This document shows, piece after piece, positions 6,865 to 61,515 of a stretch of DNA of 64,000 bases. The DNA is taken from contig NC_092562.1 in assembly GCF_037975245.1 (NCBI RefSeq), forward strand, positions 17,931,521 through 17,995,520, in the 5' to 3' direction. The notes beneath the pieces are model-generated. The model saw only the letters and a program-made list of their open reading frames with translations, was not told where the DNA came from and did no database searches. Position numbers and translations under genes: made by a program. Every line of letters starts with the position of its first letter. The first letter of the stretch is position 1. The stretch comes from Apostichopus japonicus (taxonomy: Eukaryota > Echinodermata > Holothuroidea > Aspidochirotida > Stichopodidae).

Positions 6865-11749
<4,885 letters not shown>

Positions 11750-29149: not shown

Positions 29150-30118
29150 GTTTGCCAACATCTTTATTAGAAACCTAGAGAAAACTTGAAACCACACACG
29201 TGCATGGTTACGTTTCATTGACGATATTTTCATGATATGGACCCATGGCGAGGCAAATCTAAAACTCTTCATGACATAAACTCGTTTCATGACACATTAC
29301 TGCAGAGTCTTCTGTACATGACGTTCACTTCCTGGACACCACTGTGACCCTACAAAATGGTTCACTCAAAACACACTTGCTAAATAAACCCACGAACAAG
29401 CACAACAACATTTTACTAATCAGTTGCCATCCACGTCACTGTACCAGAAATACTCCGTACAGTCAAGCCTTGCGCATTCGACTCATTTGCTCCTCTGAAG
29501 TCGATTTTGATTCCCTCACCAAAGAACTGTCACAACATCTTCTATTTTCAGGGTACTATTGAAAATGCCATCAAAAAGGCTAAAGCTTAAAAGCAAACCC
29601 CGTACCGAAATATTGACTTAAAAAACTCGTCAAACCAGTTCCAAAAGGGTACCATTGGTTACTGAATTCCACCCTGGTCTCCCTCCACTGGCTATCATTC
29701 AGAAGAATTTTCATCTACTTCAAGGCACCGAACGCCTGAAATCAGTTTTCCCAGAATTACCTGTCATCGCTTTTAAAAGACCCAGCAACCAATGGGATAT
29801 CTTAGTTCGGGCATCCTTTCGGGATGACACCCCATTAGGGGAAAGCCCAACAGAAACCATAAGATCATCGCCCTGTACACAAAATTGCAAAACGTGCTTA
29901 CTTGTCGATTCGATTGGGGCCTTTCAGATCAACCAAGCAAAACGCACGTTCCAAATTCGGCACAAAATTAACTGCCTATCCAAAAATGTCATTTACCTTA
30001 TACTGCAATATTTGTAACTAACAATACATTGGAGAGTCAAAAAACACTCTTAGAATGAGAATGACACAACATAGATCGGCGATCAAAACAAAATAGATCA
30101 ACCAACCTGTTGCAAATA
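29150..30118 (+). pseudogene. Penelope-like element, reverse transcriptase end to GIY-YIG (5' part)
   Basis: Broken frames carry Penelope-like motifs in order: WLRFIDDIFMIWTHGEANL (reverse transcriptase catalytic FIDD), HFLDTTVTLQNG, the CTQNCKTC Cys cluster, and a GIY-YIG-type endonuclease (NVIYLI..YIGESKNTLRMRM..HRSAI). In-frame stops and frameshifts occur (for example after LEKT, and between 29562 and 29655), so it is dead. It is 5' truncated. At 30118 it is cut by the 8.7-kb insert; its C-terminus resumes at 38858. Confidence 0.8.
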
Positions 30119-30155
30119 TACGAAGATCTAGAGAGGACATGGTTAAAAAAATATA

Positions 30156-30360
30156 TTACGTACGTACATAATGATACTACGTACGTACGTAATAATTATC
30201 ACGTACGTACGTGATAATACTACGTACGTACGTAATAATATCACGTACGTACGTGATATGTTTTACGTACGTACGTGATAATTACTACGCACGTACGTAG
30301 TGTTATTACGTACGTACGTAATAATTACTACGTACTTATGTAGTGATTATCACGTACGTA
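30156..30360. repeat. Subterminal ACGTACGTACGT palindromes, about 21.5-base period
   Basis: About nine 12-14-base palindromic cores (alternating TACGTACGTACGTA and CACGTACGTACGTG) at about 30178, 30200, 30221, 30242, 30263, 30285, 30307, 30329 and 30351, separated by AT-rich spacers. Two more cores lie at the right end (38791-38817). Confidence 0.9.
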
Positions 30361-30410
30361 TTTAATAATTATAACGAATGTAGGCCTACGTATAGGCCTA
30401 CACTCTAAAA

Positions 30411-30850
30411 CCAACCTGGTGAAATTTTACCAGGAGTTGCGTTTATATGCTACCTTATATATCCTGGTTGTTTTCACGAAGTTGCCTGGTGAATGAGACT
30501 TTAACAAAATCCTGGTAGATATAACCAGGAAAGCCTGGTTAAATTTCGTGGTGAAATTTTGACACTGTCCTGGTTAATATCCATGGGTATTCACCTCATT
30601 CCTTGTGATATTAACCAACATTTACTGGCTGATGCTTATACTATCCTGGTTAATATCATGAAATATTTCACCTCTTTCCTGGTCAAATTTACCACACTTT
30701 TCCTGGTTGGTGCTAATACTATCCTGGTTAATATCACAGAATGTTCCACCCCTTTCTGGTTAAATTAAACATTTCCTGGTTGATGTCACCATTATCCTGG
30801 TTAATATTAAGCTGACTTTCCACCTTATTCCTGGTTAAATCACCTCTTTC
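30411..30850. repeat. Degenerate CCTGGTTAATAT repeat field
   Basis: About fifteen CCTGGT cores, many extended to TCCTGGTTAATAT, occur in 440 bases with irregular spacing of roughly 20-75 bases, including two on the opposite strand (ACCAGG). No coding meaning is seen. Confidence 0.65.
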
Positions 30851-31092
30851 CTTGTCAATATGCCACCTTATTCTCCATTTAAGTTGCAATGCATTCAAAT
30901 TGAGAAAAAGCAAAACATAAATTATAAAACAACATCATCAATGTTACTGATAGCTAACTTTATTTGCATCTCCATTACTTTTGAATTTTGAGTACTAAGT
31001 GAACTTTTGCAATTTAGTTTGATTCCTCAGATATTAATACAATGAATTAATATAAGAAATGCAATACTGAAATCAAAATTTTGAGGACATAT

Positions 31093-31322
31093 TTACAGCA
31101 TAACCATCGTCACATGCTGAAGCTCTGATTGCTCGACATCAACTGTGAAATGTAGCAGGGATACCAAGCCCTTGATCAGCACTTTTGCACAAGGATACAA
31201 CTTGAAAATCACTTGAACAGTTTTCAGTACAGAACAAGAAATGGACCCTATACCTGTCTCTTGAAATACTTGATCAAAGCCTCTCTCCCAATAACCTTTG
31301 TTACGACAAAATTCAGCCCTGT
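31093..31322 (-). other. Possible orphan terminal exon, function unknown
   Basis: A 76-codon open frame without a Met, bounded upstream by TGA and ending in TAA at 31093. A possible acceptor is CTGACACAG just after the upstream stop, with a GCTAATAC branch-like site before it. Composition is protein-like (GYWERGFDQVFQETG, CSVLKTVQVIFKLYPC, ending ELQHVTMVML). No family is recognised and upstream exons were not found. It may be chance. Confidence 0.25.
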
Positions 31323-31339
31323 GTCAGTAGCTTCTTTTC

Positions 31340-31562
31340 TTTAAAGGTATGCTGTATTAGCCCCAAATATGCTAGATATTCAAATGTGGTCACCTTTGGT
31401 CAGAATTCTTAAACTGTTTTATTACAACCCTTTGAGGAAATTTTCCCATTCAGTCATCTTGTGTGTACCTTAAAAATGTCTGAGAACATAGGAAGGTGCT
31501 TTTTGAAAACTTCTTGCCATTATAGCGTGCTATATTTGGGGCATATACTGACTACCATTAAA
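31340..31562. mobile_element. Short inverted-repeat element (MITE)
   Basis: Ends are inverted copies over about 40 bases: TTTAAAGGTATGCTGTATTA and TTTAATGGTAGTCAGTATAT, both followed by GCCCCAAATAT. The element is 223 bases long with no reading frame. It sits just upstream of the open frame at 31093-31322. Confidence 0.65.
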
Positions 31563-32452
31563 CCAGATAGGAAGGTCTTAAAAGATCTTTGTTCACATTG
31601 TTGTTGATAAGGATGACCTAATACCAAAAAAAAATTTAATTTAATTATTTACTTATTGGTAATTAATTCATATTTTTAATTTAATTACAATTATGTTTAC
31701 CACTTTGCACAGGCAAACCGAACATCTGCAAGATAATAATTAGGCTTCCAACAATACCATTAATGTTTTAGTAATAAGCTCATCGTTGGACCTCACATAC
31801 AGTACTTGTGCAAATTATTTTAACTCCAATAGAAAGTGGTAAGTTAAGCTTATTATAATCACAAGAAAGATTAATTTGAAAAGATTTTGAGCTAACAATT
31901 AAGTAGTTAAAGTATAAACCAAAGTGACCTTGAACATGAAATTTGTGATACTCCGACCCCGAATGACCATAATTATGATCACGTTTTGCATACATCCACA
32001 TGTCCGTCCGTGGACCAAACAATTAACCAAACCAAACCCCTAAATGACCTTCGACATAAATTCCTGAGCACTTCCACAAGTCTCTTCATCACAGGCCATC
32101 TCTATGCAAGTTTCATTGAAGTTGTACCAACAGGTATTATCAATTGTGGACAGAGAGATCAATTGAAATGCAAAGCATCAAATTGTTTCTCATAAAAACA
32201 GCTACAATCACATTCTTGATGTGCATCATCCAAGCCAAAGACATCCTTTCACTATTGCAAAGCTGCGTTACTTGGTAGCCTCTCTCAATTTCTCATTTTC
32301 ACCTCTTCCAGTTTGTACCAATCTAGGAAAGGAATGAAACAATTAAAGTATTAAATGGTGTGTTAACGAACTAGAATGAAAAGAAGATTAATCGCTTTCT
32401 TCCGTCTAATAGTTTTTGCGCCATGCTTTTTGAAAACCTGGCTTGAAAACCA
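31563..32452. other. Non-coding part of the 8.7-kb element
   Basis: AT-rich DNA with a stretch near 31920-32120 (TGACCTTGAACATGAAATTT, CAAGTTTCATTGAA) in the style of common marine-invertebrate repeats. No supported gene. Confidence 0.4.
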
Positions 32453-33940
32453 ATGGCTATCATGGCTGCTCTTAGTCGAGACACGTCTGTTCAGCTTCAC
32501 TTAGATTCCAGTGAAGGAAAGTCAATTCTATTTAAACTGTTGAAGGAGAGATTCATCGATCCAAGAGAGCATCTTACGGCGGTTCAGGAACTACCAGGTA
32601 GAGTATGGGATGTAACCTTCAAAACCGTAGATTTGAAGAAGAAGTTTTGGCCTGCTCTGTCCAGCGCAGATTGCTGCACTGCGACTACGTACACTGGTTG
32701 CACGACGCTTGTTACTGTGTTACATGTACAGTATGAATTGGGGGTCAACGTTGTGAGGTACGTTCTAGGCCGATACGGTAAAGTAGTAAGCGGTCGTTTC
32801 CTCACACTCGCCGACTACCCACAGGTGTTTAATGGGATTCGACAATACCAGGTGGAAATAACAAAGGATATTCCCTCATCTTTAAGACTCGGTGGAAGGA
32901 ACTGCTGGGTTAGATACAGAGGCCAGCCAAGAACCTGCTTGAAATGCGGATTAAATGGTCACGAAGCAAAGAACTGCGACCAGATCAAATGTTACAACTG
33001 CCATGAATTTGGACATACAGCGAAAGATTGTACTACAGAAGTCAAATGCACGGTATGTGAAAAGTCGGGGCACACTTCTCGTAACTGCCTAATTTCATTT
33101 GCAAGTAAGATCAGCCCTACCGCCAGAGCTTGGGTTAAGGGCCCTGCTGTCCTGCAACAAGAAGCAGAAACAGCCGAAAAAAGTGATGAGATAACGGCAA
33201 AAGGATCTGATGGTGACACCAATGCCGAGGTAACGGAATCTATGTCATCAGCCTCAAGTTATTGGGCCACCCCCCCCCCCCAAGCTGAATCCCTCGACAC
33301 CAATGCCAATATGGACGATGATCATGGTATGACCCAGGACCCACAAAATACAGAAGAGAGTCTACCCATCACAGAAAGTCAGACGAATCTGTTCGAAAAC
33401 GCAGAGGTAATTGAATCTAAGTCATCAGCCTCAAGTAATTGGGCCACCCCCCAAGCTGAACCCCTCGAAGAATCTAACAGTGGAAGAATGAAATGTCAAC
33501 CACCACCGAAAATATCGTCACAAGAGGACAGTGTTGAAGCTAACTCTTCCCGTCCCAGCTCAAGAACAAAGAGAAAAAGTGCTTCTCAACCTGAGTCAGT
33601 CAAGAGATTGGAGAGATCAAGGTCAAGCCTTCGCTTCCCCGCCGAGGACCCATGCGACAGTGTAAAGATGACTCAAATTTTCTTAGAGGACGAGCCATGG
33701 CACTCGTGTTATGCGAAGGGGTGCCAGGAAAAATTTTCCAGGTATGATTTATTGATAGAACACGCGTCCAAAACCCACCCTAAGCTGAAACCTGCAAAGT
33801 ATCCCTGTGCCTTAAAGTCATGTAAGTTCACGTGTGAGTCCCCCCGGGATTGGATCACGCACATGGCTGAAGAGCACCCACAATTTGTGAGTCAAAAGGA
33901 GACAGAATTTTTCGACGGGTATTTTTTAAAGAATGCCTGA
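32453..33940 (+). CDS. Retrotransposon-type ORF1 with three CCHC knuckles and two C2H2 fingers
   Basis: Intact 495-codon intronless frame. Residues 1-160 form a region that resembles the N-terminal part of Tx1/L1-type ORF1 and ZCCHC proteins. Three zinc knuckles of CX2CX4HX4C type follow at residues 162-175, 180-193 and 199-212 (CLKCGLNGHEAKNC, CYNCHEFGHTAKDC, CTVCEKSGHTSRNC). A Ser/Pro/acidic linker contains a repeated phrase (SSASSYWATP, SSASSNWATP). At the end are two C2H2-like fingers (C419, C424, H437, H442 and C452, C457, H470, H475). The likely role is nucleic-acid binding for a LINE. An L1/Tx1-like ORF2 scrap follows at 34389-34680. The start could also be the second Met, MAAL. It is remarkable that this frame is open while nearby LINE frames are broken. 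Confidence 0.7.
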   Translation: MAIMAALSRDTSVQLHLDSSEGKSILFKLLKERFIDPREHLTAVQELPGRVWDVTFKTVDLKKKFWPALSSADCCTATTYTGCTTLVTVLHVQYELGVNVVRYVLGRYGKVVSGRFLTLADYPQVFNGIRQYQVEITKDIPSSLRLGGRNCWVRYRGQPRTCLKCGLNGHEAKNCDQIKCYNCHEFGHTAKDCTTEVKCTVCEKSGHTSRNCLISFASKISPTARAWVKGPAVLQQEAETAEKSDEITAKGSDGDTNAEVTESMSSASSYWATPPPQAESLDTNANMDDDHGMTQDPQNTEESLPITESQTNLFENAEVIESKSSASSNWATPQAEPLEESNSGRMKCQPPPKISSQEDSVEANSSRPSSRTKRKSASQPESVKRLERSRSSLRFPAEDPCDSVKMTQIFLEDEPWHSCYAKGCQEKFSRYDLLIEHASKTHPKLKPAKYPCALKSCKFTCESPRDWITHMAEEHPQFVSQKETEFFDGYFLKNA

Positions 33941-34135
33941 ACAAATCAAAGATTTTCACTCATCTTGTTCAGTTTGAGCGTACCTCATTAACAACGACTA
34001 CTTTTGTTTCACTCAACGTAAATAGACTACGGGACAACCAGAAATGTTCACAGATTCCACAACGGACCAAGATTTTTAAATTTAATATCATACTGTACAT
34101 GTCGTGTTTATTTTATGTAGTGCTGTATAATCCAG

Positions 34136-34380
34136 TTAGTACTGAACCTGGTGTTTTTAAACATCAAGGCTGTGCTTTCTATAACAGCAGTTTATGGGTC
34201 TTTAACATCACTTATAATCTTACTGATTGTTGTAGGGCTGTATATGTGCTGTATATGTCATGTAGGGCTGATCCTGAGTTTTTCAAGCGCCATTGTTGTT
34301 CTTCCCATAACAGTACTTTACGGGTATTTAACGCCAATTATAATCTTATTGATTGTTGTAGGGATGTTCATCCCACCACC
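34136..34380 (+). repeat. Tandem duplication of a hydrophobic-coding segment, about 125-base period
   Basis: Two diverged direct units begin at about 34136 and 34261. In one frame (34151-34390) both encode similar hydrophobic stretches (VYGSLTSLIILLIVVGLY and LYGYLTPIIILLIVVGMF). No family is recognised. It lies between ORF1 and the L1/Tx1-like scrap and may be LINE spacer sequence. Confidence 0.5.
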
Positions 34381-34388
34381 AACGTCCT

Positions 34389-34680
34389 AGAATTGATCGG
34401 ATCTATTCCCCGAAAGAATTTGTTGTTAACAAAGCGACTACGTCGCCGATCCCTTATTCTGACCATAGACCTGTCCAGGACAATATGGAAGAATTACGGG
34501 CTTACTATAAGCTATGGTCTACTCCGAATACTAATTTTAATGCTTTAGGTGATTGGTGGGAGAGTGTTAAAACTAGAACTAAAATGCTTGCTTGCCGTTC
34601 GACAGGGTACTCGCATTGCTCGTCAGAAAAGAAAACAGCTCACAGAGCTCCAAAGTCTTTGTTTAACTTCAAATTGCCAT
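34389..34680 (+). pseudogene. L1/Tx1-like LINE ORF2 fragment
   Basis: In the frame starting at 34389 the residues RIDRIYSP and YSDHRPV match the end of an APE-type endonuclease, followed by DWWESVKTRTK, typical of the segment between endonuclease and reverse transcriptase in L1/Tx1 elements. A frameshift near 34600 moves the continuation (RIARQKRKQLTELQ) to another frame. A different LINE's endonuclease starts within about 100 bases after it, so this is a scrap of a separate element, probably the one that owns ORF1. Confidence 0.6.
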
Positions 34681-37645
34681 GGCATTACCCGCTGATAACA
34701 TAAACATTGAACGGAGTAATCCAGATGTCAACCATCTGGTACATACTCCATGTAAATACTTTGATATTGATTCTTTTAACAAGTTATGTCTAGCAAACAA
34801 AGCCGGTTTCACGATATTCCATCATAATAGCCAAAGTCTTATCAAAAATTTCAACGACATAACAACTTTTATCTCATTATTAAGTAACGACTTTTCCATT
34901 ATTGGTTTCACAGAAACGTGGTTCAATAAACGTAGTTCCCCCCTTACTCAATTAAATAACTATACTCTAGTAGAAAATCACCGTGACGAGAGAAGGGGTG
35001 GCGGGGTCTGCTTGTTTGTTAATAATAATTTATGTTTTAAGGAGCGGGTAGATCTCTCCATTTTTAATGAGAGTATTGAATCTATATTTATAGAAGTAAC
35101 TGAAACGCATACTAAGAAGAAACTGATTATTGGTTGTATTTATAGACCACCCAGCGGTTCAATTGACGATTTCAATTTCAATGTACAACATAAATCTAAT
35201 ATAATAAGTCATCACAATTATGATTCATATATAATGGGAGATTTTAATATTGATTTATCTGATGTAAACAAATCAACAGGTTTTCTTAACTTATTGTAAT
35301 CTACCGGATTCAATCCTACAATTACTAAACCCACTCGTATCACTGCAACCTCAGCAACTATACTTGATAATATTGTAACAAATATCGAATCCACAACCAT
35401 ACCAGGAATTCTTGTAACCGATATTAGTGATCATTTTCCAATATTCCTTTTGATTCCTACCAAGAATAACAGACCAATGAACTTCATGTACAGGCGAAAT
35501 TATAAACCAGATAACATCAGGTGTTTTAACTATGAAATTGAAAACAAAAACTGGAACGATGTTTTAAGCCAAACTGATGTTAATGCTGCTTACGACACTT
35601 TCTTTGATTCCTTTAATTACACCTGTAATAATTGTTTTCCAATATGTTATGTAAGCAAAAGGAAACGACGTAAAAAGAAACATCCATGGATTACAACTGG
35701 AATGTTGAAATCTATCAAAAGAAAGAACATGCTCTTTAAAAGTTATTTAACAGCACCTACTGATGTTAACAAGGCTACGTATAAGCATTATCGCAATAAG
35801 CTTAACCATATTATTAGATTTTCTAAAAGATTGTATTTCTATGATAAATTCAAAAATAATAGAAATAATGTAAGTGTAACTTGGAAAACAATTAACGAAG
35901 TTCTAAACACCAACCGAAAAAAGGTGGATATCCTGCTGCTTTTAAAACTGGTGATCGAGAAATCAGCAACGAGAATGACATTGCCAGCTACTTTAACAAA
36001 TATTTTGTAAACATTGGACCCTCACTTGCAAGAAACATTACAAATAAAGGTAGTACAGAATATCTTATTCATAATAATAACAGAAACAGTCAATCTATGT
36101 TCATTAATCCTGTCAGTGAGGAAGAACTTTCAATAGTTGCTATTTCCAGCCTGAAACCAAAAACATCAGCGGGATATGACGATTTTAAACCAGATATAAT
36201 AAGAAATGTTATTCACTTTATCGCCAAACCATTGACTTATATTTGTAATTTATCTTTTACTTCTGGTACATTTCCAGATAAACTAAAGATTGCTAAGGTT
36301 ATACCAATTTTTAAAAAGGTGACCAAGATGTATATGAAAATTACCGTCCTATTTCTTTATTATCATGTTTTTCAAAAATTATTGAAAGGCTTATGTACAA
36401 TCATATCGATAAGTTTCTAACCAAGTTTAATATCCTGTGCAATGATCAATATGGCTTCCGCCCAAAGCATTCTACAGAACTTGCTTTGGCAAATGCCATT
36501 GAAAAAAATATGTACTAGTCTTGATAACACCAAAATATGTATTGGAGTGTTCCTTGATCTCTCCAAGGCATTTGATACTATTGACCATACCATTTTGCTA
36601 AGTAAATTATCTTTGTATGGTGTAAGGGGAACAACCCTTGACTGGTTCAGCAGCTATTTATCCAATAGACATCAATATACTTCATATAAAAACTCTGAAT
36701 CCGAACACGCTGTAACCCGTTGTGGTGTTCCACAGGGCTCAATATTAGGACCACTGTTGTTCATTATATGTCAATGACATTTGCCAGGTGTCAAAAATTG
36801 CCAAGACTATACTGTTTGCTGATGATACCAATATTTTCTTCGAGTTCGAAAACGTACATAGAATACATGATACTGTCTCTACTGAATTAACTAAATTTAC
36901 TAACTGGTTTGCTGCTAATAAGTTATCACTTAATGCAGACAAAACTAACTATATAGTATTTAATGGAAGAGGAACGCTTAACTGGAGTAATGACATAATA
37001 ATGGACGGTAAAGTAATTAAACAAGTATCAACTACTAAATTTCTAGGGGTTAATATTGATAGTAAACTTTCATGGAGTGACCATATTACAAAAGTTTGCA
37101 CCAGCGTTGCAAGAGGTGCAGGAATTTTAGCAAAGCTAAAACATTTCCTCCCCCAGAATATACTCAGAATACTTTATCAAACTTTAATAGCACCACATCT
37201 GTATTACTGCTTGATTATCTGGTCTGGTACAAGTGTTTCTCATTTAAGTCACCTTAAAATACTTCAAAAGAGTGCAATTCGTCATATATCTCACGCAGCA
37301 CCGCGTGAACATACAAGCCCCCTCTTTAAGAAACTCAATTTATTGAAATTAGATGACATTATAAAAGTTAATATTGCAACATTTACATACAAGGCTTGGA
37401 ATGGATCATTACCAATCAGTTTTCGAAATTTTATAAATAGCAACACGGATTTCCATAATCATAATACCAGAACGGCTAGCAACGCACATTATAAATCATA
37501 TAAAACACGCACTGGTATGTTAAGCCTCAGTAACCGTGCAACCAAAATTTGGAATTCACTGTCAATAACTTTAAAAACTAAGAAAACAAGCTCCACATTT
37601 AGTAAATGTCTTACTAAAGAAATTATCATGTCTTATAAATTATGA
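34679..37645 (+). pseudogene. L2/CR1-like LINE ORF2 (endonuclease plus reverse transcriptase), frameshifted
   Basis: The APE endonuclease shows GFTETWF, RRGGGVCLFV, GCIYRPPSG, YIMGDFNIDL and SDHFPIFLL. The reverse transcriptase shows FLDLSKAFDTIDH, GVPQGSILGPLLF and the catalytic FADDTN, then a C-terminal region to 37645. Breaks: TAA at 35297; frameshifts near 35920 and 36318 and near 36503, all in poly-A runs; and one near 36770. The catalytic motifs themselves are intact, so decay is recent or the run-length changes are sequencing errors. It is followed by a hairpin 3' UTR and a TGAA tail. Confidence 0.85.
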
Positions 37646-37850
37646 TTTAGCTGCATAGTCGCATAGCAGCATATTCACATATTGAAGCGTATACGTATTG
37701 TTATTAACATTATTTTCACTATTTTCTATCTTTTCTTCATGGGAGTCTTCTGTTTTATTAAGCCAGCATAGGCTTTTCAGAAGACTTCCATCCACATTGT
37801 AATATTTATGTGAAAAAACAAATAAATGAATGAATGAATGAATGAATGAA
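37646..37850 (+). mobile_element. 3' UTR and (TGAA)n tail of the L2/CR1-like LINE
   Basis: Contains the stem halves GGGAGTCTTCTG and AGAAGACTTCC around an inner AAGCC..AGGCTTT pair, then TGTGAAAAAACAAATAAATG and about six TGAA units. The same hairpin and tail plan recurs at 15620-15725. Such tails are the usual 3' ends of L2/CR1-type LINEs. Confidence 0.65.
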
Positions 37851-38760
37851 CCTAACCCTAATTTAATCTTGGAATAATTCACTGAGTTGGTCAGTCTTAC
37901 TTCTGTTTGGGTTTGTTTTCCACAGGGCATTTATGTGGTTTCTAACCCTAGGCTCCTTTGACGTTTAGTAACCTGTTAGGTTAGGTTTGTGTGTAAAGTA
38001 GGCTAACCTTATACTAATACTAGCTGATACCATGTAGTGATTTGAGATTAGCAACATTGACTTGAATTTGACATGGTAGTTATTATAATAAATGGGCTAG
38101 CTGTTGATACAGGAGGGCTACACAATATGATTGATTATCAACATACAATTCCACGTTTATACTTTTAAAGTCATTTTCAAGGCTAAAAATAAACCTCAAA
38201 CAATTATCTGTAGGGTAGGGTAGTCCTGTCCTACCCTTACCTAGCCTATAAAATGTGAGTAAAATCAGGGAGTTGTTCTAACAAATACCTTGTATAATAT
38301 CGTTCGCCCAGCTATTAGTATTACCCTGGCTATATGTGCATAGGCTGGGGAGTTTAAGTGATCGACCAGGGAGTTGCCGTAACATCATCTTGGACCGACA
38401 GCGGCAATAGACACTACACAGGCCTTATCACTGGCCTAGCCCATGACCTATCCACGTGAGATTCAATGAACTCAAGCTTAACGTGAGGCCTACGTGAGGT
38501 CTAACTCAAGCCAGACCTATTTATGCATTACTTGAGCCTAGGACTAATGATTCGGGAATGAGTTCCAGCACAAAATTGTGGCGGCTTAAGTACAGGCATA
38601 CCTGTGGTGTTACTGTTAGTCGAACGAACGTACCTTAATTGTCTGTCTCCGGCATGTTTTAGTTAACTAGTCTATAGGCTGCATAAGCTTGACTTCTGAC
38701 TTCTTGCATGTCGACAAATGTGTTACAGTATATACGTACCGCGTACCCTCACTTCTTACT
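37851..38760. other. Non-coding right part of the 8.7-kb element
   Basis: No supported gene. The sequence is unique-looking, with several TAGGCCTA-type words. The open frame at 38689-39063 runs from here across the terminal repeat into Penelope sequence and is a fusion artefact. Confidence 0.4.
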
Positions 38761-38857
38761 ATCTTCGGTATAGAACGTAAAATTATCACTTACGTACGTA
38801 ATAAATATTACGTACGTAATATTATTTTTTTTACCATGTCCTCTCTAGGTCTTCGTA

Positions 38858-39311
38858 CAAATAACATCAATCTCCAAAATCATTCAATTGAGAATTTGCG
38901 TGTTATTGCCATTGACCAGAACGATTCTTGCACAGATAAATCTGGGAAAGGAAAAGAACTAAACCTAAAGACCACGGCACCTTTCGGCTTAAACATCAGA
39001 AACGATTTGCCGTCCCAGAAAAACCAAAACAATTCCTTTGCAATTACGACGGAATCGGATTAAAATAATCTAGGAAATCTTAAAATAATCCGACGCGGAT
39101 TAAAATAATCCGAATTTCTAAAACTTCTGCTCAATTAAGCAGAAATCAGTTAGTCGCTTGACTTAACAACCATGCCGACAATCTTTTCTATAAAATAGTT
39201 TCAATTCCTGCTACTCCTTGTCACTTTCTGTGATCATGCACTGAAGAAGAGATAGTTTTGCTCGAAAGCTCTGCAAAAACCTAACATTGTCTGTTTTACT
39301 TCCAATCACTT
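38858..39311 (+). pseudogene. Penelope-like element, C-terminus and 3' UTR
   Basis: Continues the element cut at 30118. The frame resumes with NHSIENLRVIAIDQN and ends with TTAPFGLNIRNDL, the usual C-terminal pattern of Penelope-like proteins. The 3' UTR (about 39218-39311, with TTTGCTCGAAAGCTCTGC) runs into a long TA microsatellite. The same UTR occurs in inverted form at 40780-40900. Confidence 0.75.
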
Positions 39312-60549: not shown

Positions 60550-61515
60550 AAATGTTAAACTTTGGCACTGCGCCGATGATTAAAGAAATTAAAGAAGAAG
60601 CACACCCAGCTATTATCACTAACTTTGAGGATGGAACCGATTGTGATGAACACCTGAACAAAATGGAAACATCACTGGTCTTAATGTTAATTGGTATGCA
60701 GAACTTAAGAAGTTACAACTTGAGCCACATTTAGCTGAAGTTTGGAATGTTTAATTAATTTATTTTTCATTAAACTATTTTTTTATTAAACTTGCTTTGT
60801 TGGCACTGCGCCGATTATTAACGAAATCAAAGAAGAAGCACACCCAGCTATTATCACTACCTTTAAGGATGGAACCTGTTGTGATGAACACCTGAAAAAT
60901 GGAAACATCACTTGTCTTAATGTTGATTCATATACAGAACTTAAGAGGTTACAACTTGAGCCACAATGAGTTGAAGTTTGTAATGTTTTATTTTGTATTT
61001 TTTATTAAACTATTTTTTTTTTTTATTAAACTTGCTTTGTTGGCACTGCGCCGATTATTAACGAAATCAAAGAAGAAGCACACCCAGCTATTATCACTAC
61101 CTTTAAGGATGGAACCTATTGTGATGAACCCCTGAAAAAATGGAAACATCACTTGTCTTAATGTTGTTTCATATACAGAACTTAAGAGGTTACAACTTGA
61201 GCCACAATGAGTTGAAGTTTGGAATGTTTTATTTTGTATTTTTTATTAAACTATTTTTTTTTATTAAACTTGCTTTGTTGGCACTGCGCCAATGATTAAC
61301 GAAATTAAAGAAGAAGCACGCCCATCTAGTATCACTAACGTTAAGGATTGAACCGATTGTGATGAACAACTTAACAAAATGGAATCATCACTGGTGTTAA
61401 TGTTATTTCATACACAGAACTTTAGAGGTTACAGCTTGAGCCACAATAAGCTGAATTTTGGAATGTTTTTTTTTTCTCTTTTTATTAATCTTGCTTTGCT
61501 TCTTAAAGAGACACA
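60550..61515 (+). repeat. Four tandem 240-base repeats
   Basis: GGCACTGCGCC starts units at 60564, 60802, 61042 and 61280 (spacing 238-240). The single equivalent unit of block II is at 28180-28400. Each unit starts a similar short frame, but the frames break at different points, so a gene is not supported. Confidence 0.85.

Follow-up and report, generated by a model that had tools for sequence, protein, structure and literature searches.

A non-autonomous transposon with probable IS3EU-type affinity, nested in a Penelope-like repeat and itself interrupted by a LINE, in Apostichopus japonicus

The stretch of DNA analysed here (the window, 64,000 nt; C2:17931521-17995520 of the 671.6-Mb genome, which comprises 35 contigs) holds a clean nest of three layers, in which a host repeat is interrupted by a DNA transposon and the latter by a LINE. 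Elsewhere, at 60562-61488, the window carries a 238-bp tandem array of 3.9 copies. The parts of the nest are as follows, in window coordinates.

29622..30118, + strand: left part of the host repeat, Penelope-like with a GIY-YIG motif (joined-flank search, profile scan)
30113..30118, no strand: left target-site duplication, CAAATA (direct reading)
30119..30153, + strand: left terminal inverted repeat (TIR), TACGAAGATCTAGAGAGGACATGGT... (inverted-repeat analysis, genome motif search)
30154..30376, + strand: left subterminal array, 10.3 copies of ACGTACGTACGT-centred units of about 22 bp, several of them palindromic (tandem-repeat analysis; weak in the symmetry test)
30564..30807, + strand: internal 78-bp tandem array of CCTGGTTAATAT type (tandem-repeat analysis)
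31000..32419, + strand: left interior, present in siblings and at further loci (genome search)
32436-32439 and 37850-37853, no strand: ACCT flanking the LINE (direct reading)
32440..37849, + strand: nested LINE with an (AATG)n tail, absent from 20 compared sibling stretches (profile scan)
32447-33940, + strand: CCHC protein of the LINE (ORF/profile analysis)
34667-35299, + strand: endonuclease of the LINE (profile scan)
36749-37645, + strand: reverse transcriptase of the LINE (profile scan)
37860..38420, + strand: right interior (genome search)
38775..38818, + strand: right subterminal ACGTACGT array, 2 units (inverted- and tandem-repeat analyses)
38823..38857, - strand: right TIR (inverted-repeat analysis, genome motif search)
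38858..38863, no strand: right target-site duplication, CAAATA (direct reading)
38864..39063, + strand: right part of the host repeat (joined-flank search, profile scan)

CAAATA abuts both ends of the element, and the repeat is exactly 6 bases long. Just inside it, TACGAAGA..TCTTCGTA form a TIR pair of 35 nt, with 33 of 35 positions paired (94% complementary). An earlier interpretation made from the letters of the window (the sequence-only reading) had put the similarity of the ends at about 48 bases; some 35 of these are true TIR, but the remainder derives from the ACGTACGT-rich subterminal arrays that sit inside both TIRs, and there is no single long TIR. When a 25-base end motif was searched across the 671.6 Mb with up to 3 mismatches, 191 matches were recovered (93 forward and 98 reverse), whereas the reversed motif, used as a control on the same genome, gave none in either direction.

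The state of the site before insertion can be read from other copies of the host repeat. A 400-base empty-site query, in which 29919-30118 was joined to the right flank with a single CAAATA, aligned end to end (query 1-400, 414 bases, 93%) in every one of the 40 copies scored from 520 candidates, the result being judged by the span of the alignment across the join and not by the junction letters. Other copies of the host repeat therefore run straight through the insertion point; Penelope copies sharing the internal sequence had been named beforehand as an outcome that would tell against an insertion, and the copies found pass through the site uninterrupted. The frame across the join matches the Pfam GIY-YIG model at E 0.0032 and 18.2 bits, below the cut-off of 22.6, and this match, together with the attribution made in the sequence-only reading, is compatible with a Penelope element but does not prove one.

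The two ends were used as genome queries, as had been proposed, and many other loci carry the same ends. With the left 302 bases 93 matches were obtained (scoring covered 40 of 214 candidates), and with the right 458 bases 122 (40 of 152). Twenty sibling stretches were fetched, of which 18 have both ends while L037 and L038 are without a left end in the fetched stretch, so that the window copy and 18 siblings make up a two-ended subfamily set of 19. An exact 6-bp direct repeat flanks 16 of these 19 copies, and none has a longer one. All 19 have the termini TACGAA..TTCGTA, which is a measure of agreement and not an independent test because the copies were chosen by their ends. Among the other three, L035 has a 6-bp repeat with one mismatch, and L022 and L024 have no 6-bp repeat, their left flank being that of L021 and their right flank different. 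L023 and L033 have nearly identical flanks on both sides and are a single insertion that was duplicated together with its surroundings, so that the 16 exact repeats represent 15 insertions.

Relatives from other subfamilies can carry exact 6-bp repeats of their own, as seen in L079 (AGAACC, 4,783 bp) and L082 (GTTTTC, 395 bp). No exact repeat was found around any of six distinct short copies of other subfamilies (L039, L042, L045, L046, L048 and L050), which have 1-2 mismatches, and this weighs against the reading favoured below. Five of the six, all but L048, have flanks in common with one another and with L079, namely GCAGCAAGAAC..AGAACCAACCCC with small differences, or the complement; they are thus not independent insertions, but one insertion multiplied by the surrounding repeat. 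At other places in the genome, besides the 395-bp L082, paired ends lie roughly 0.7-1.1 kb apart. TIR sites with GATAGG are clustered on C11 and C23 at a spacing of roughly 80-166 kb, which looks like a large tandem duplication.

That the inverted repeat and CAAATA might have met by chance in a rearranged region has nothing in its favour other than the small size of the duplication, and is refuted by the absence of control matches, by the 16 of 19 exact duplications and by the host copies running through the site; its probability is negligible. The window insertion is real, well bordered, gene-less mobile DNA within an older mobile element, and the ends, CAAATA and the genome copies agree in bearing out the original proposal that a TIR-bearing insert, with a 6-bp target duplication, sits inside another repeat.

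The size of the element requires revision. Siblings align to positions 1-2321 and 7733-8739 of the window element without the stretch between, and when three siblings are compared at the break the insertion is seen to be clean, with ACCT on each side. The insert, of about 5.4 kb, is a LINE that arrived after the transposon had inserted. Its CCHC, endonuclease and reverse transcriptase reading frames are broken by stops and frame changes; the endonuclease still matches Exo_endo_phos at E 2.4e-6, and the reverse transcriptase matches RVT_1 at E 3.5e-6 with 27.3 bits, just under the cut-off of 29.6. A 1-kb piece of it occurs at full length in at least six other places at 96-98% identity (40 of 195 candidates scored). 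Most siblings (15 of 18) fall within 3.2-3.8 kb. The element proper is some 3.3 kb long, and the 8.7 kb originally given is the sum of this element and the nested LINE; the borders in that description hold but the size does not. The statement that the interior contains other mobile DNA is correct for the window copy. Other inserts are present in siblings L024, L029 and L036.

The two interior segments behave differently in genome searches. For the right interior every one of 24 candidates was scored, and the 24 matches fall at 23 loci, one of them the window. The left interior, apart from its presence in siblings, is found with 87-90% identity at at least 13 further loci (40 of 2502 candidates scored). 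None of these has the right interior or, within 13 kb, a listed TIR, which indicates that this part of the element is common to another repeat. These left-interior-only loci lie on C9, C8, C16 and C5, with eight of the 13 in three clusters on C9. In a 1.3-kb core aligned across 20 copies, some siblings at different sites are only about 1% apart, indicating that the family was active recently. The window copy differs from the other 19 by 4-5% in this core and is among the most diverged members.

The subterminal DNA was examined for dyad symmetry using 232 ACGTACGT units (92 distinct; the duplicates L022, L024 and L033 were excluded). In the 53 distinct units whose core measures 12 bp, the base adjacent to the core is symmetric in 72% against 57% in shuffles, a value reached by 5 of 2000 shuffles. 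The corresponding figures are 70% against 63% for the next base (174 of 2000), 79% against 80% for the third (2000 of 2000) and 85% against 81% for the fourth (105 of 2000), while the outer two bases are symmetric at chance level; symmetry in the 38 units whose core measures 8 bp does not exceed chance. The dyad symmetry of the units thus exceeds that of shuffles weakly. It is improbable, though conceivable, that the family owes its movement to a transposase from none of the known 6-bp superfamilies, which would recognise tandem palindromic ACGTACGTACGT units beside short TIRs. The window copy, L045, L048, L049, L061, L079, L080 and L081 have in common the TIR and a ACGTACGT-rich subterminal stretch of roughly 90-190 bp, and the interiors of several of these are unlike one another despite the common ends.

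The element is non-autonomous. The longest stop-to-stop frame is 97 residues in sibling L031 and up to 112 residues in L030, L022 and L019, and three L031 frames match nothing in Pfam at E 0.1; the view that no transposase is recognisable extends to the copies examined here. Polintons are 15-20 kb in size. That the element is the decayed remnant of a Polinton/Maverick is highly improbable: none of the four siblings has a long frame, or one for an integrase or polymerase, the ends and size are unlike those of Polintons, and many short copies have the same TIRs. The likeness lies in the 6-bp duplication, which Polintons also make in the account given by PMC10045372.

Searches with TIR variants yielded 148 distinct sites among the matches listed, with sites at 2-3 mismatches partly covered. 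The integrase core domain PF24764 (rva_4) has 143 matches in this genome as opposed to none in 14 control genomes. The closest of the 143 lies 45 kb from any of the 148 TIR sites among the matches listed, and an earlier comparison of 86 PF24764 positions with 142 TIR sites gave the same minimum of 45 kb. Two PF24764 proteins were compared with the NCBIfam models: L072 matched IS481 at E 6.3e-7 and IS3 at E 7.4e-5, both below the curated cut-offs, and L069 matched neither. PF24764 may mark the IS3EU transposase.

Six TIR-paired intervals longer than 4 kb held no recognised transposase (for the interval on C4, in an ORF listing of the middle part alone). Two of them were considered as autonomous copies and set aside. 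The 4,783-bp interval on C7 (L079) belongs to another subfamily and has frames of up to 204 residues, none of them recognised in an ORF listing, and the 10,887-bp interval on C4, whose middle 5,000 bases contain frames of at most 96 residues, may be the gap between two separate elements. A match to the IS481 model on C13 was also rejected as a partner, as it is 5.1 kb from a TIR pair yet lies outside it. Of the 68 IS481-model matches scored (from 1287 candidates), 37 are in frames of at least 1000 residues, as expected for the integrases of LTR elements. Genome searches with the left and right interiors, as leads to longer relatives, found no autonomous partner.

The PF24764 matches are crowded on C17 (59 of 143), where several may be exons of one gene. 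In L085 (347-1435), as with L069, L070 and L084 (C1 and C16), a PF24764 integrase gene lies opposite a frame with a HECT ubiquitin-ligase domain (E 1.4e-11), with a tandem array of about 161 bp between the two. The arrangement suggests a transposon carrying a HECT protein; a literature search found no paper in which transposase, HECT domain, transposon and integrase core all occur.

The reading we favour, with a probability of about three in four, is that a DNA transposon of the cut-and-paste type, non-autonomous and some 3.3 kb long, with ends of the IS3EU/GingerRoot type, inserted into a Penelope-like repeat and was later invaded by a LINE. A DDE transposase supplied in trans would bind the ends, perhaps engaging the TIR and subterminal array together, cut the element out and join it to target strands 6 bp apart, the target in this case being a copy of the Penelope-like repeat. 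Repair of the gaps left by the staggered joins would then create the CAAATA duplication. The LINE would later have copied itself into the transposon between the ACCT flanks, giving the present 8.7 kb. Sibling identity near 99% implies that a working transposase was present recently, and hence that an autonomous partner should be findable.

The ends of hAT elements are usually CA..TG, and Dada transposase can make 6-bp duplications. That the same non-autonomous TIR transposon was moved by another 6-bp superfamily, such as hAT6 or Dada, is unlikely but deserves some weight, given that the TIR could be tied to no transposase at the 148 sites among the matches listed. The usual hAT ends do not fit TAC..GTA. 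The length of the duplication does fit hAT6, families of which with 6-bp duplications are on record in the part of PMC12730594 that deals with them. The complete IS3EU families reported in PMC10045372 always have TA..TA termini, matching the element here.

An IS3EU/GingerRoot affinity of the window element accords with these comparisons. This group of eukaryotic DNA transposons, related to IS3/IS481, combines the TA..TA termini with 6-bp duplications in the families covered by PMC10045372, and the window element likewise has TAC..GTA ends, a 6-bp duplication and a TIR exceeding 30 bp; the earlier objection to IS3EU on account of the ends is therefore not supported. The difference is that no transposase is present in the copies examined here and the autonomous partner was not found, so that the assignment, which rests on the ends, the duplication and the TIR length, is likely and not proved. 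Good support exists for the more modest description of a cut-and-paste element with IS3EU-type ends that is mobilised in trans. MITE-type families offer a second comparison: short relatives (L082, and the end pairs of about 0.7-1.1 kb) keep the same ends, but the window subfamily is mostly 3.2-3.8 kb long and its interior is partly common to another repeat. A young family with IS3EU-type ends is of an ordinary kind, a useful annotation for the specialist and no surprise. Fungal IS3EU elements, as described in the relevant portion of PMC12730594, have 6-bp duplications, TIRs of more than 30 bp and the ends TAYGG..CCRTA, from which the TACGA of the present element differs, and the copies described here probably represent a new IS3EU-type family.
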